NCBI GenBank assembly: GCA_945883675.1
Contig: CAMCYA010000008.1
Location: forward strand, 1 to 36,965
Origin: Bifidobacterium breve
GTDB taxonomy: Bacteria; Actinomycetota; Actinomycetes; Nanopelagicales; Nanopelagicaceae
Reading direction: 5' to 3'
Length of the DNA stretch: 36,965 nt
Below, one piece after another: positions 29,764 to 34,975 of this stretch. Position 1 is the first letter of the stretch. Every line of letters starts with the position of its first letter. The notes under the pieces are model-generated. The model was given only the letters and a program-made list of their open reading frames with translations. It made no database searches and had not been told where the DNA came from. Both the position numbers and the translations under genes were made by a program.

Positions 29764-30062
29764 CCTATACCCTATTAGCGATCTCTGCTGTTGTAATTGT
29801 CATAATCCTTGATCTATATGTTATAAAAACTTGCTTACTCAAACGCAAAGTTTTCTGGACTTCGTATGCAATCATTGTAGGTTTTCAGCTTTTAACAAAC
29901 TGGTGGTTAACGTCTCGAAACATCGTCATCTATAGCCCTGATGCAATTCTGGGCCTGCGAATAGCATCTGCTCCAGTTGAGGACTTACTCTTTGGTTTTG
30001 CGCTAGTTGTAGGCGTATTAATTAATTGGATAAGGCTAGGCGCTTCAGATAAGCAGCACTAG
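29760..30062 (+). CDS. crtYd: Lycopene cyclase subunit CrtYd
   Basis: The second half of the heterodimeric lycopene cyclase, 100 residues, with three hydrophobic helices and the motif PVEDLLFGF, the counterpart of the PLEEYLFF box in CrtYc. ATG 29760 overlaps the crtYc stop (ATGA). The open frame extends to ATG 29745, but those codons lie inside crtYc. The last 41 bases overlap the 3' end of the convergent crtB gene, so the two transcripts are complementary there. Confidence 0.9.
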   Translation: MTYTLLAISAVVIVIILDLYVIKTCLLKRKVFWTSYAIIVGFQLLTNWWLTSRNIVIYSPDAILGLRIASAPVEDLLFGFALVVGVLINWIRLGASDKQH

Positions 30063-30924
30063 CAACACGTAATCTTCTTCCAGTTGATGTTTTGGCACGT
30101 TTGTTGAAAATTTCGTAATTGATTTTTTCTACCTCTTCGACAATTCCACAGTACAAAGTACTTGCCGCTTGGATACATGGACGACTAGATGGCTCCAATA
30201 GTTTGATTCCTGGTGCAGCCTGGTCCTGCAACCTCTTAACTCTGGCAATTTGGAATTTAAGCGCTTCAACTATTTCGGGAGTAAGGACTCTTGCTTCTAG
30301 CATTTTGCGGTCTACGCCAAATTGTTGTAACTCTTTTTTAGGTAGATAGACGCGTGATCTATCTAAATCTTCGCCGACATCCCGAATAAAATTGGCTAAT
30401 TGAAATGCAATACCTAATGTTTTTGCCGATTCATAGGCATCAGCGTGTAAGGGACCTAGAATCGGAACCATTTGTAGCCCAATAACTGCAGCTGATCCAT
30501 AGACGTACTCCATTAAATCTTCATAGGTCTCATACTCTTGAACAGTTAAATCCATCTCCATTGAGTGTAAAAATGCTTCAAAGTATTCATGCGGAATATC
30601 AAATCGTGTAACGGTATCTATTAATGCTCGACCGACAGCATCCTGGCTATTACCTTTCTTTAAATCTGATAAAACTTTGCTGCCCCACGTGTTTAACTCT
30701 TTGGCTTTTTCTTGAACAGATAACTGTGATGCTAAGTCGTCCACGATTTCATCGGCATAGCGAGCAAAGCCATAGAGCGCGTGAACAAAAGGTCTCTTGG
30801 CTTTAGGCAGTAAAAGAGTTGCTAGGAAGTAAGTTTTTCCATGTAAAGCATTGAGTCTTTTGCACTCCGCATATGATGCACGCAGATCGGGATCTGTGAT
30901 TCCGGCAGCGGTTAACTCATCCAC
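30022..30924 (-). CDS. crtB: Phytoene synthase
   Basis: Condenses two GGPP to 15-cis-phytoene, 300 residues. The two Asp-rich motifs are YADEIVDD (residues 57-63) and NFIRDVGEDLDRSRVYLP, and YGSAAVIGLQM lies between them, as in squalene/phytoene synthases. GTG 30924 directly abuts the crtI stop, so it is the last gene of an idsA-crtI-crtB operon. Its 3' end overlaps crtYd, read from the other strand. Confidence 0.95.
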   Translation of the reverse strand: MDELTAAGITDPDLRASYAECKRLNALHGKTYFLATLLLPKAKRPFVHALYGFARYADEIVDDLASQLSVQEKAKELNTWGSKVLSDLKKGNSQDAVGRALIDTVTRFDIPHEYFEAFLHSMEMDLTVQEYETYEDLMEYVYGSAAVIGLQMVPILGPLHADAYESAKTLGIAFQLANFIRDVGEDLDRSRVYLPKKELQQFGVDRKMLEARVLTPEIVEALKFQIARVKRLQDQAAPGIKLLEPSSRPCIQAASTLYCGIVEEVEKINYEIFNKRAKTSTGRRLRVASAAYLKRLALSN

Positions 30925-32409
30925 TTATTTAACCGGACCCACAATGCGTTCAGCTGCTAAGCGACCTGAAATCAATACCATCGGAACACCAACTCCGGGT
31001 TGTGTTCCTGATCCGGCAAATACAACGTTTTCAATTCCAGCTGCAATGTTACGAGGTCTAAATGGACCTGTCTGGAAAAAAGTGTGGGCACTTGCGAAAG
31101 GAGCGCCTGCTTCCATTCCTTGAGACTGCCAATCCAATGGAGTTGTTAGCACTTCAGTTTCAATGGCATCACCAAAGCCTGTGTATCCACGCTTTTCCAT
31201 AGTTTCAACCATGTGATCACGATATGGCTTGGCCTGCTTCTTCCAATCTATGTTGGCAGTCAAATTGGGTGTTGGAAATAGAACGTAATAAGAATGTTTT
31301 CCAGGGGGAGCCAAAGTTGGATCATCCTTTGAAGGTAGCGTTACCAAAAGACTTGGATCACTCATCAAAACCTTTTTCTTGATGAGCTCATCAAATATTC
31401 CATCCCATTGATGACCAAAATGAATGTTGTGGTGGGCGGCAAATTCGTATTCTCGTGAAGAGCCAACCAGCATCGTTACGCAAGAAGGAGAGTAGTTAAG
31501 ACGCTTTACTGAAAGAGGAGTCTTTCCTAACAGGTCACGCCAAGCAACGGGTAGATCAGGATTTAGAATTACCGCATCACATTCAATTCTTTGACCATCT
31601 TCTGTAATCACAGCCTTTGCGCGCGAGTTAACAACATCAATCTTTGAAACGGTAGTGCTGTATTTGAACACGACACCATGTTTCTCGGCTGCTGCTGCCA
31701 TTGCCCGCGGAACAGCGTGCATACCGCCCTTGGGAAAGAAAACTCCGTTTACTGAGTCCATATATGCAATAACGGCATAAATCGCTAAGGCTTGTTGAGG
31801 ACTAACACCTGCATACATTGCTTGGAATGAATACACGCGTTGAAGCCGGGGATCTTTCATAAACTGATTAACTTTAGGAGACAGGCGTCTAAAACCACCT
31901 AGTGCAATGAGGCGAGCAAGATTTGGAGTTAAGAGATTGAGTGGAGAGTCGATATTTCGATCAATGAAATCATTCATCTCATACTTGTATAACTTAGTTA
32001 CGAAATCTACATATTTTGCATAACCTGCAGCTTCTTCGGGGCTAATTTTCTCTGCAATCTCTGCTTCCATCTGAGCAGTATTTGCATGGACATCTAACTG
32101 CGAACCATCTGCATAAAAAGCACGGTAAAGCGGTGAGACCGGCATAAGTTCAAGCCAATCCTTCATATCTTCACCGACACTACTAAAAGCATCTTGAATT
32201 AGTGATGGCATTGTTAAAACTGAGGGACCCGTATCAAAAGAGTAACCATCTTTTTTCAGTAAACCATTACGTCCGCCGGGAACTGATTCTCGTTCTATCA
32301 CTGTGACTTTTCGACCGGCACCTGCCAAACGTAAAGCAGCACTGAGTCCGGCCAATCCAGCACCGACTACGACTACATGATCCGTAGGCCCTTTAACACG
32401 TGCTGGCAT
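30925..32409 (-). CDS. crtI: Phytoene desaturase (CrtI)
   Basis: An FAD-dependent desaturase-isomerase of 494 residues that converts phytoene to lycopene. The N-terminal dinucleotide fold is VVVGAGLAGLSAALRLAGAG followed by the E of VIERE and GGRNG; SFDTGPSVLTMP is the conserved next box. The C-terminal FAD segment is VFAGSGTQPGVGVPMVLISG, matching the CrtI bacterial-type signature. The start ATG overlaps the idsA stop by one base (TAATG). It pairs with crtB downstream. Confidence 0.95.
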   Translation of the reverse strand: MPARVKGPTDHVVVVGAGLAGLSAALRLAGAGRKVTVIERESVPGGRNGLLKKDGYSFDTGPSVLTMPSLIQDAFSSVGEDMKDWLELMPVSPLYRAFYADGSQLDVHANTAQMEAEIAEKISPEEAAGYAKYVDFVTKLYKYEMNDFIDRNIDSPLNLLTPNLARLIALGGFRRLSPKVNQFMKDPRLQRVYSFQAMYAGVSPQQALAIYAVIAYMDSVNGVFFPKGGMHAVPRAMAAAAEKHGVVFKYSTTVSKIDVVNSRAKAVITEDGQRIECDAVILNPDLPVAWRDLLGKTPLSVKRLNYSPSCVTMLVGSSREYEFAAHHNIHFGHQWDGIFDELIKKKVLMSDPSLLVTLPSKDDPTLAPPGKHSYYVLFPTPNLTANIDWKKQAKPYRDHMVETMEKRGYTGFGDAIETEVLTTPLDWQSQGMEAGAPFASAHTFFQTGPFRPRNIAAGIENVVFAGSGTQPGVGVPMVLISGRLAAERIVGPVK

Positions 32410-33485
32410 TAATTACTCCTCTTTGTGGCGATATGAGCAAGCTCAGATAAAAGTTGTTGACCTTCTTCTGAAAATTCTGGTGAGGCAATTACCGCAATGG
32501 ATTTTTCAGTCAATTCTTCAATCAACTTCTCTAACTTATCTTTTGCTCCAGAGTCCAAGATTATCTGTTGAAGGGCGGTTATGCCCTCTGAATTCAAATC
32601 AGGTTGACCAAAGTATTTTTCAAAGGTCTGGGACTGTGATGGAGTTTGAGTATCTCGGGAAAGGGCGATCAAAACGGTTTTTTTGCCTTCTCGCAAGTCA
32701 TCCCCGGTTGGCTTTCCAGTTACCGAGGCATCTCCGTAGACACCTAATAAGTCGTCACGAAGTTGAAATGCTTCTCCAAGAGGCAGCCCATATGCAGAGA
32801 GTGCATAGATTCTCTTTTGATTTATTGAATCAGCCATAGCAGCCCCAAGGTGTAATGGACGCTCTATTGTGTATTTTCCAGATTTGTATCGCGCAATCTT
32901 CATTGAGCGATCAAAACTTGAACTTTTTTGTGTCTGCTCATGAATATCTAAAAACTGCCCTGCCATTAGTTCAACGCGCATTTCATTGTAGTAAGGAATT
33001 GTTCTTGTAAATTGATCAGCGGTTAATCCAGCTGAGTTAAGCATTTGATCAGACCATACAAGTGCCAAATCTCCAAGTAGAACTGCAGCCGATAAACCAT
33101 ACTGTGGTGCAAAACCTTCAAGTCGATCTTGCACATGAATAGATTCAAAGTGACGATGAATGGATGGTTTTCCACGGCGCGTATCAGATGCATCCATTAA
33201 GTCATCATGGATTAGCGCACACGCTTGCAGAAGTTCTAAACTTGCTATCGCTCTTATAGTTGAATTCTCAAGAGTTCCACCGGCTGCAATAAATCCTGCA
33301 TATGCAAAAAGAGGGCGAAGACGTTTACCCCCTTCTAGTAAAAATGATGTTAAAGAGTTACAAACGAGCGTTAAGTCTTGTGAGATATCTTGCAAATAGG
33401 CACCCTCACGGCTTAGAAATATTCCAAGCTCTTCTTCAACGGATGTACGAACAGCTAGCAGGCTCGTCTTTGGCACTGAATTCAC
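32409..33485 (-). CDS. idsA: Geranylgeranyl diphosphate synthase (polyprenyl synthetase)
   Basis: A trans-prenyltransferase of 358 residues making the C20 precursor of carotenoids. LEGGKRLRP binds substrate, LIHDDLMDASDTRRGKPS is the first Asp-rich motif (DDxxD), and FQLRDDLLGVYGD the second. The residue five positions before the first Asp is Cys, a small side chain consistent with a C20 or longer product. GTG 33485 with TACCGT six bases upstream suggests a leaderless mRNA. It heads idsA-crtI-crtB and diverges from metF across 22 bases. Equivalent to crtE by function. Confidence 0.93.
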   Translation of the reverse strand: MNSVPKTSLLAVRTSVEEELGIFLSREGAYLQDISQDLTLVCNSLTSFLLEGGKRLRPLFAYAGFIAAGGTLENSTIRAIASLELLQACALIHDDLMDASDTRRGKPSIHRHFESIHVQDRLEGFAPQYGLSAAVLLGDLALVWSDQMLNSAGLTADQFTRTIPYYNEMRVELMAGQFLDIHEQTQKSSSFDRSMKIARYKSGKYTIERPLHLGAAMADSINQKRIYALSAYGLPLGEAFQLRDDLLGVYGDASVTGKPTGDDLREGKKTVLIALSRDTQTPSQSQTFEKYFGQPDLNSEGITALQQIILDSGAKDKLEKLIEELTEKSIAVIASPEFSEEGQQLLSELAHIATKRSN

Positions 33486-33491
33486 GTGATA

Positions 33492-33501
33492 ACGGTACCC
33501 T
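33492..33501. promoter_or_regulatory. Symmetric divergent -10 element: idsA operon / metF
   Basis: ACGGTACCCT reads TACCGT on minus (33492-33497), six bases before idsA GTG 33485, and TACCCT on plus (33496-33501), six bases before metF GTG 33508. The two hexamers share the TA at 33496-33497 and cannot both be melted by independent polymerases at once. Confidence 0.7.
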
Positions 33502-33507
33502 CACTCA

Positions 33508-34362
33508 GTGGTAGTTGGCACATCCTATTCATTTGAGTTCTTTCCTCCCAAAGACATAGAGGGGGAAGGAAGATTGTGGCATGCAATAGAAGGGCTCAAA
33601 TCTATTGCTCCAGATTTTGTATCCGTAACATATGGAGCTGGTGGGTCAACTAGAGATCGATCTATTCGTATTGCTCGTGAAATCACAAGCCGCACCGGCA
33701 TTCCAACAGTGGCGCACATTACTTGCGTTGGATCAACGCGTGATGAATTACTGGAGATTTTAAACAGTTACAAAGATGCCAAAATTACAAGCATTCTTGC
33801 ACTTCGCGGTGATCCAGTTGGCGGACCTTTAGCGCCATGGCTACCAACAGAAAACGGATTTACTCACGCTGACGAACTTGTTGAATTGGCAAAAGAGTGT
33901 GGAGGATTCAAAATAGGTGTTGCCGCTTTTCCAGATGGACATCCAAGTTCTGGGGGAGATTTGGAAAAAGATATTGACGTGCTCATTAGAAAAGAAGAAC
34001 TGGGTGCAACGTTTGCAACAACTCAATTCTTTTTTGATGTGAAGTCTTATAAGAATCTCGTGGAACGCCTTGCAAAACGTGGCTCTGCACTCACAGTCAT
34101 TCCTGGAATTTTGCCAGTTACTAATGTGAAGCTTCTGCATCGAATGGCAGAGCTTGGGGGAACGCCTATTCCAGTTCATATTGCCAAAGCCTTCGCAGAG
34201 GTTGAGTCTGATTCCCAGGCTGTTCGTGAGCTAGGTGTAGAAATTGCCACAAAACTATGCAAAGAACTCTTAGAAGCTGGTGCTCCTGGATTACATTTTT
34301 ACACTATGAATAGCTCAACTGCAACAGTTGAGATTTATCGAAGGATCAATAATGTTAACTAA
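33508..34362 (+). CDS. metF: 5,10-methylenetetrahydrofolate reductase
   Basis: A flavin-dependent TIM-barrel enzyme of 284 residues producing 5-methyltetrahydrofolate for methionine synthesis. SFEFFPPKD is the N-terminal box with the catalytic Glu; FVSVTYGAGGSTRDRS, AHITCVGSTRDEL, ILALRGDPVGG, FPDGHPSS, ATTQFFFDV and VIPGILPVTN follow in the expected order. GTG 33508 is used, with TACCCT six bases upstream. The last 11 bases overlap the CDP-alcohol phosphatidyltransferase gene. A metF-like gene opposite a polyprenyl synthase also occurs in mycobacteria (idsA2 region). Confidence 0.95.
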   Translation: MVVGTSYSFEFFPPKDIEGEGRLWHAIEGLKSIAPDFVSVTYGAGGSTRDRSIRIAREITSRTGIPTVAHITCVGSTRDELLEILNSYKDAKITSILALRGDPVGGPLAPWLPTENGFTHADELVELAKECGGFKIGVAAFPDGHPSSGGDLEKDIDVLIRKEELGATFATTQFFFDVKSYKNLVERLAKRGSALTVIPGILPVTNVKLLHRMAELGGTPIPVHIAKAFAEVESDSQAVRELGVEIATKLCKELLEAGAPGLHFYTMNSSTATVEIYRRINNVN

Positions 34363-34975
34363 GCAAGAGTTCAAACTTAGATGGAGCGCACTGCACAGTG
34401 ATGCAAAAACTGATGGCATTGTTGGAGCATGGCTAAATATTTCATACCGATTTGGACTTGTGTGCACACTTCTTCGGATCTCCCCAAATGTACTGACGTT
34501 GTTGGGCCTCCTCGGGGCTTTAGCAACTGCAATAACGTCACAAACAATTTGGGCGATTTTCTTTCTTGTCTTTTCGCTTTTTTGCGATGGTATTGATGGA
34601 AGTGTTGCAATCTTCCAACAACGTGAAAGTAATTGGGGGGCAACCCTTGATGCGGTAGCAGATCGCATCAGTGAGGCTTTTTGGTTTTATGCTCTTTACG
34701 CAATCGGTGTTCCTGCTTGGATTCCTATAATTTTATGGAGTATTGCCTCTTTTCAGGAATACGCCCGCGCAAAGCTCAAAGCCCTGGGAGTAAATGATTT
34801 AGGAGTGGTAACGCCCGCAGAGAGACCGATTCGAGCAAGTTTTCTATTTATAGCGTTAGTAATTAATTACGTTAACCTTCCGGGCATTTTCTGGCTATCA
34901 ATAGCTTTCTTAATTGTTCAAATTTATAGTTTTGTTAGTGTCGTAGTTTTCGCTCGAAGCCAATTGCTTGACTAA
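34352..34975 (+). CDS. CDP-alcohol phosphatidyltransferase-family protein with altered motif
   Basis: A 207-residue membrane protein with about six hydrophobic helices. The family motif D-x2-DG-x2-AR-x8-G-x3-D-x3-D appears as DGIDGSVAIFQQRESNWG followed by ATLDAVAD: all four catalytic Asp and both Gly are present, but the normally conserved Arg after Ala is Ile. Similar DGAVAV-type sequences exist, as I recall, in other actinobacteria, so this may be a distinct subfamily. ATG 34352 with AAGGA (34341-34345) is preferred over ATG 34328. It overlaps metF and converges on the second CrtI-like gene with a 41-base overlap. Alcohol acceptor and product are unknown. Confidence 0.8.
   Translation: MLTKQEFKLRWSALHSDAKTDGIVGAWLNISYRFGLVCTLLRISPNVLTLLGLLGALATAITSQTIWAIFFLVFSLFCDGIDGSVAIFQQRESNWGATLDAVADRISEAFWFYALYAIGVPAWIPIILWSIASFQEYARAKLKALGVNDLGVVTPAERPIRASFLFIALVINYVNLPGIFWLSIAFLIVQIYSFVSVVVFARSQLLD

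Follow-up and report, generated by a model that had tools for sequence, protein, structure and literature searches.

The window, the whole stretch of DNA analyzed here, is the 36,965-nt contig CAMCYA010000008.1 of assembly GCA_945883675.1 (titled Bifidobacterium breve; GTDB family Nanopelagicaceae), which comes from a genome of 1.19 Mb in 62 contigs. Within it, a crtE/idsA-like gene for a polyprenyl diphosphate synthase and metF, the gene for methylenetetrahydrofolate reductase, diverge from one another across a gap of 22 bases (33486–33507), with the minus-strand GTG reading from 33485 and the plus-strand GTG from 33508. The gap holds two −10-like hexamers, TACCCT on the plus strand and TACCGT on the minus strand, that have T33496-A33497 in common, and 6 bases separate each hexamer from its GTG, just as a preliminary description of the sequence had reported. 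On the minus strand, crtE/idsA-like, crtI-like, and crtB-like genes follow one another in tightly packed succession. On the plus strand, metF is followed by a CDP-alcohol phosphatidyltransferase-family gene (called CDP-alcohol phosphotransferase below), which is probably the second gene of a metF operon. Its ATG (34352), read from the translation, overlaps the end of metF; the open reading frame (ORF) as listed begins at a TTG at 34328. Coordinates and profile matches are collected in Table 1.

Table 1. Promoter element and genes of the crtE/metF locus, in window coordinates.
Feature	Position	Strand	Basis or remark
Shared pseudo-palindromic double −10 element ACGGTACCCT (A-nnn-TA-nnn-T)	33492–33501	both	Direct reading and family conservation
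metF-operon −10 hexamer TACCCT	33496–33501	+	Preceded by CGG (33493–33495), a [G/C][A/G]N extension
crtE −10 hexamer TACCGT	33497 down to 33492	−	GGG (33500–33498) before and T (33491) after, on the minus strand
Predicted metF transcription start, first GTG base (leaderless)	33508	+	From the 6-nt spacing and the genus peak at 6 nt
Predicted crtE transcription start, first GTG base (leaderless)	33485	−	From the element-to-start distance in the family, 6 nt (81/86) or 7 nt (5/86)
metF, methylenetetrahydrofolate reductase, 284 aa	33508–34362	+	PF02219 1.6e-86; TIGR00676 302.4 bits, cut-off 293.7
CDP-alcohol phosphatidyltransferase-family gene	34352–34975	+	PF01066 2.2e-12
crtE/idsA-like polyprenyl diphosphate synthase, 358 aa	32409–33485	−	PF00348 1.2e-51; best NCBIfam NF042416, below its cut-off
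crtI-family phytoene desaturase	30925–32409	−	TIGR02734 532.4 bits, cut-off 238.1; 1-nt overlap with crtE
Phytoene/squalene synthase family (crtB-like, SQS_PSY)	30022–30924	−	PF00494 5.3e-66

Seen in one window, the ten letters of the element prove little: they have one exact match there, and with up to one mismatch allowed, shuffled sequences already yield 0.6 matches. Their significance comes from comparison across relatives, for which 90 metF loci of Candidatus Nanopelagicaceae were fetched (30 + 20 + 40) out of more that were found. A first set gave a match in 42 of 61 genomes and delivered 30 loci; a second gave matches in 132 of 151 genomes, and 60 more loci were fetched. In 86 of the 90, crtE is adjacent and divergent (the remaining four are L036, L037, L048, and L145), and all 86, from 13 genera, keep the A-nnn-TA-nnn-T pattern. 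The element lies 6 or, in a few loci, 7 nt from the crtE start (Table 1), and control spacers of 3–4, 9–10, 11–12, and 14–15 nt yield the pattern in 1, 5, 2, and 7 of the 86 loci.

On the crtE protein tree of these loci, parsimony assigns no change to A−16, G−14, T−12, A−11, or T−7 (plus-strand numbering) and none to the base that borders the element on its left (33491, which on the crtE strand is the T at −6). The other columns of the element changed once (C−8), three times (C−9), five times each (−13 and −10), and nine times (−15); those of the crtE start codon changed 2, 3, and 7 times. The flanks, whose drift around a constant element the preliminary description had proposed as a check, averaged 20.75 changes (24 columns to the left) and 22.96 changes (23 columns from +20). 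The search pattern itself fixed A, T, A, and T, but no divergent locus failed it, and G−14, C−9, and C−8 lay outside that pattern. Loss of a hexamer in a relative with the same gene arrangement had been named beforehand as a refuting observation, and it occurs in none of the 86 loci. Judged by this comparison, the conservation of the element is not due to chance.

In the window and throughout the 86 family loci, −10 motifs on opposite strands overlap at a shared TA, the layout of a bidirectional promoter. Comparison of the sequences supports the earlier proposal of one symmetric −10 site for both genes, and ACGGTACCCT is very probably a bidirectional promoter of the housekeeping type, made of two overlapping −10 elements with a common TA step. 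RNA polymerase would bind the site one molecule at a time and in either orientation, melting the same TA. A leftward polymerase would start at the crtE GTG and transcribe a crtE-crtI-crtB operon, and a rightward polymerase would start at the metF GTG and transcribe metF and the CDP-alcohol phosphotransferase gene. In the genus of the window, both messages would probably be leaderless, and the whole 22-nt gap would be promoter. No −35 element was found; in its place, each strand has a [G/C][A/G]N extension directly before its TA. Steric exclusion of opposed polymerases would be a consequence of this geometry and not a demonstrated regulatory switch, its relevance depending on occupancy. We infer the start points, operons, two-way activity, sigma recognition, and polymerase exclusion from sequence.

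The spacing of hexamers and start codons was surveyed in 800 kb of a complete genome of the same genus (G104), with ORFs called by length only and the 5′-most ATG or GTG taken as the start; crtE/metF lies outside the sampled part. TANNNT stands exactly 6 nt before the start in 131 of 727 ORFs and 7 nt before it in 34, every other spacer from 0 to 30 accounts for 1–13 ORFs, and a control motif shows no comparable peak. Many genes of the genus have spacing of the leaderless type, and the 6 + 6 nt of the window fall within the range, 6–7 nt, at which TANNNT exceeds the genome background. Among 100 divergent pairs of G104, 23 could be doubly leaderless, that is, have TANNNT 6–7 nt from an in-frame start within the first 40 codons of both genes, and 8 of the 23 have gaps of 16–32 nt. 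Controls gave 0, 2, 1, and 0 such pairs with four other motifs and 0, 0, 1, and 0 with four other spacers.

At crtE/metF itself, the spacing is 6 nt on both sides in 27 of the 30 loci of the genus and 6/7 or 7/6 in the other three; the metF start alone lies 6 nt from the hexamer in 29 loci and 7 nt in one. Elsewhere in the family, g3 excepted, the nearest in-frame metF start is 7–9 nt off (one g16 locus is at 6), and in g3 it is 11–41 nt off in 9 of 10 loci and 8 nt in the tenth. Taken literally, a 6-nt rule was rejected for the family as a whole, since it is kept on the crtE side only. Of the earlier claim that both mRNAs are leaderless, the part on crtE is supported across the family and the part on metF within the genus, with predicted starts. 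The g3 metF start is usually preceded by a Shine-Dalgarno-like stretch of the GCGAAAGGA type and the element is unmoved; its position therefore goes with transcription, not with the start codon of metF. In nine g3 loci (L034, L035, and L122–L128), metF appears to have switched from leaderless to leadered with its promoter in place.

Loci without metF bear on the question of whether the element serves crtE only, in which case the plus hexamer would be a mirror image kept for the sake of the bases upstream of the crtE −10 (AGGG), and metF would be driven from elsewhere. Two of the 28 genomes in the crtE search (G119 and G180) yielded a distant paralogue only. Among the 26 main crtE loci, L277–L294 were scored, L295–L298 were checked by eye and by pattern, and L299–L302 were checked by eye only. 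None of the 18 scored loci has an intact metF next to crtE. All 18 keep the crtE half of the element and 17 keep the plus hexamer and thus the full element, although the metF start position changed in several; the exception, L280, has lost the final T of the plus hexamer. This retention indicates that metF is not the sole reason for the element, as a crtE-only promoter would have it, and the near-invariance of C−8 (85/86; −15 on the minus strand), which the plus hexamer does not need, points the same way. However, these losses are limited as proof because a match to CDP-alcohol phosphotransferase still stands on the far side of the element in the metF-less loci. In L277 (G184; element near 2577 of the reverse strand, match to 3214), the GTG of that gene lies 6 nt from the hexamer, so the plus direction has a target. 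The exact 6-nt position of metF in 29 of 30 genus loci also speaks against a promoter for crtE only, and the minus hexamer alone leaves the invariant plus-strand G−14 (86/86) unexplained. On balance we regard the crtE-only account as highly improbable.

The metF-less loci are of further interest in themselves. In G118 (L290) metF lies elsewhere in the genome, and in G088 (L292) a metF remnant is present; the remaining loci gave no metF match in the family searches, some of these genomes being incomplete. The family seems to have lost metF repeatedly with its neighbors retained, as the gaps between the element and the next gene differ and the single-contig genomes G014 and G015 are among the cases. 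In L277, the first codons of the CDP-alcohol phosphotransferase frame are metF-like, as if a deletion had fused the two genes.

The two-way promoter reading also has to account for letters beyond the two hexamers. Cortes et al. (PMC3898074) report that in Mycobacterium tuberculosis 49% of TANNNT promoters are preceded by a [G/C][A/G]N extension and that no −35 motif is conserved. The window carries such an extension on both strands, CGG before the plus hexamer and GGG before the minus hexamer. Across the family, −15 is C or G in 72 and −14 is G in 86 of the 86 loci on the plus strand; on the minus strand, −15 is C or G in 86 and −14 is A or G in 84. The leaderless-type promoters of G104 are enriched in G at −14 (67/165 versus a background of 23.9%, p 2e-6), have C−9 at background (40/165), and are depleted in C−10 (24/165). 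At the crtE/metF site, C−9 is found in 82 and C−10 in 78 of the 86 loci. The shared-TA layout pairs plus-strand C−9 with −14 of the minus strand and C−10 with its −13, and retention of C−9 and C−10 is predicted by mirroring, which makes the C−9 of either promoter the G−14 of its opposite. The simplest reading of the mirrored letters is that each strand carries its own [G/C][A/G]N extension, and this layout would explain why ANGNTANCNT, not ANNNTANNNT alone, is kept.

The same letters could instead mean that the palindromic core GGTACC is, or is also, the operator of a transcription factor controlling both operons. The GG and CC beside the TA are more conserved than the NNN of a usual promoter, and the C−10 retained here is, as noted, rare in the leaderless-type promoters of the genus. 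Part of this conservation is accounted for by the mirrored preference for G−14, however, and GG/CC varies in g9, g11, g12, g13, g15, and the genus Aeromicrobium, where ANNNTANNNT is constant. Strong conservation spans only ∼11 bp, the crtE start codon apart; the family columns thus reveal no site longer than a promoter core, nor do the 800 kb of G104 reveal one repeated at other genes. In those 800 kb, ACGGTACCCT does not occur and its family variant AAGGTACCCT occurs twice, giving no sign of a regulon. An operator at this site therefore strikes us as very unlikely. The regulon idea was rejected on these counts, few of the 87 GGTACC sites of the G104 sample lying at gene starts.

Several observations weigh against the bidirectional promoter as we read it. 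The mirrored extension leaves G−13/C−10 unexplained, the genus having no such preference, and C−8 is closer to constant than two promoters need. A consensus scan of 33350–33650 gave no sigma-70 −35/−10 pair. The metF start lies 7–9 nt off in most other genera, and at distances of 8 and 9 nt the hexamer shows little or no genome-wide excess (11 and 7 of 727 ORFs). Outside the divergent set, three loci of g5 and one of g14 have a crtE without the element, indicating that sharing is not obligatory; by eye, crtE of g5 has TAATCT-N6-ATG and faces an opposing ATG with TAGAGT-N7. The strict pattern CAY-N6-ANNNTANNNT-N6-RTG was rejected as an enriched genome-wide signal, with 4 sites in the genome of the window versus 4 for a reversed control. 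The 800 kb of G104 contain no strict 6/6 site between two ORFs of at least 60 aa, with one 6/7 and one 6/8 site.

Beyond the family, idsA and metF are divergent in 31 of 70 loci from other families and classes, mostly with longer gaps and separate hexamers as judged by eye, and the comparison indicates that this divergence is an old arrangement. The element is present in 4 of the 31, all from genus g25 (4/4 fetched), with the letters ACGATACCGT and a spacing of 7/6 or 7/7. Records named Aeromicrobium have the same geometry in 5 of 5 cases, with ACGATACCGT, ACGGTACCGT, or ACGGTATCGT, whereas none of the 13 records with Nocardioides in the title (0/13) has the element there. A g25 locus (L071) and an Aeromicrobium locus (L359) are 99% identical over the compared MetF segment, indicating that g25 is Aeromicrobium or very close to it. 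Among 80 named loci, which overlap some genomes already counted and are not an independent count, crtE is divergent in 74 and the element is present in 44: 38 in this family, 5 in Aeromicrobium, and 1 (L370, with ACCCTAGCCT) in another metagenome-assembled genome (MAG) of the Nocardioidaceae, with family assigned by identity and sequence. Both the gene pair and the element are present in the records of the acI strains IMCC25003 and IMCC26103, and ACGATACCGT is present in the Aeromicrobium isolates Root344 and A. phragmitis. Four MAG records titled Bifidobacterium breve (L307, L310, L313, and L321) are family-like by MetF identity and gene order, and their titles seem wrong; L335 (Clavibacter sp.) and L334 (Streptomycetaceae bacterium) are probably family-like, and so mistitled, on the same basis.

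Several parts of this arrangement have precedents, which we cite as far as the available text of the sources goes. Bidirectional promoters have been defined as a class by start separations of 7–25 bp (PMC10268837); a separation of 18 bp is the commonest, and 10 and 23 bp are also common (PMC12825309). The 23-bp class of Warman, Grainger, and co-workers (PMC12825309) resembles crtE/metF in having opposite-strand starts 23 bp apart (a predicted distance in our case), a shared −10 element, and the possibility of two mRNAs. Unlike that class, crtE/metF has start codons that are the predicted start sites, an extended −10 on both strands, and conservation traced over 13 genera. Actinobacterial leaderless TANNNT promoters (M. 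tuberculosis, PMC3898074; Zheng et al. 2011, PMC3160421) likewise have no clear −35 and start at the start codon, but they are separate promoters, whereas crtE/metF uses one site on both strands. Divergent neighbors that are both leaderless by start-site mapping are on record in M. tuberculosis, namely prpD (Rv1130) and Rv1129c (PMC3898074). In Pyrococcus furiosus, BRE-TATA-BRE promoters have a near-symmetric core read both ways, as shown in vitro for one promoter; these differ in having an archaeal TATA box, starts ∼50 bp apart, and mostly antisense RNA in place of two leaderless mRNAs (PMC6640164). The gene neighborhood has a parallel in Mycobacterium abscessus, where a MetF homologue adjoins the geranylgeranyl diphosphate synthase gene idsA; in other mycobacteria the atypical MetF-like Rv2172c occupies the idsA-side position (PMC4428469).

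Going by these sources, the 23-bp class, actinobacterial leaderless genes, doubly leaderless divergent genes, and archaeal two-way core promoters are already known. The preliminary description had singled out the fully leaderless version with mutual exclusion as the less familiar part. That needs qualifying in view of prpD/Rv1129c. The full combination did not appear in the parts of the open literature covered by our searches, among whose titles none concerned a shared −10 promoter of two leaderless genes. What is apparently new, on the sequences compared, is the combination of a shared TA, two apparently leaderless genes, a mirrored extension, a sequence that hardly varies among 13 genera, and a geometry that Aeromicrobium shares.

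Mutual exclusion had been proposed to couple pigment-precursor and methyl-folate supply inversely. Opposed polymerases would indeed overlap, and the available text of PMC12825309 states that they cannot occupy a shared site together and that repression of the opposite direction appears upon substantial activation of one. According to the same text, however, all five Escherichia coli bidirectional promoters tested were too weak at basal activity to compete, and the site here is intact after loss of metF in several lineages. An exclusion strong enough for inverse coupling thus appears unlikely, and the proposal found no support. Our confidence is high in the promoter and, given the lack of competition at basal activity in E. 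coli, low in the coupling.

Other gaps of similar build were sought in the same genomes. Here crtE, metF, xseA, PAC2, ndh-type, SpoU, EamA, and MgtE_N are named from profile matches; for ispH, murA, pduO, metH, and the epimerase, the names are our own assumption from reading the sequences. Of the 4 strict sites in the genome of the window, 3 are flanked by diverging ORFs: those of crtE and metF, those of an MgtE_N-CBS-PRC protein and an EamA transporter, and those of a SpoU methylase and a 115-aa protein without a Pfam match. The second of these (L420, C16:11054–11081) has a GGTACC-centered shared-TA site, AGGGTACCTT, 6 nt from both the MgtE_N/CBS/PRC-barrel and the EamA starts. The gap that separates an epimerase-like from an NDH-2-type gene (L387–L412) keeps AGTCTA-nnn-T, in the shared-TA layout, in 24 of 24 loci having both genes. 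An RTG stands 6–7 nt away on both sides in 11 of these 24, its frame unchecked, and the distance to the ndh start varies. The gap between xseA and the presumed ispH (L247–L276) has abutting hexamers (AGCCTA-A-TAGACT type) and measures 25–26 nt from start to start in 15 of 30 loci, which makes this a candidate doubly leaderless pair. Among the control divergent pairs, to which xseA/ispH belongs, spacing is mostly lost in murA/pduO and partly kept in PAC2/metH.

At crtE/metF, the same ten letters would set the start-site separation and both start codons in a compact two-way promoter. The locus would allow a joint study of how polymerases compete, how leaderless messages are translated, and how a promoter gains its direction, and the family alignment, metF-less loci included, is a source of natural variants for it. 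More tentatively, it is possible that doubly leaderless mirror-image −10 promoters are a general device of streamlined freshwater actinobacteria. About 10 bases would then be the sole regulatory DNA between operons, polymerase orientation would set the output ratio, and selection would have kept nearly every letter throughout a family, even as neighboring genes on one side were repeatedly deleted or joined to it. Were this so, ndh/epimerase, mgtE-like/eamA, spoU/small ORF, and xseA/ispH would belong to the same set, with crtE/metF as its best studied member. Should the figure of 23 in 100 divergent pairs, taken from one genome, hold, the doubly leaderless architecture would be common in these freshwater bacteria.

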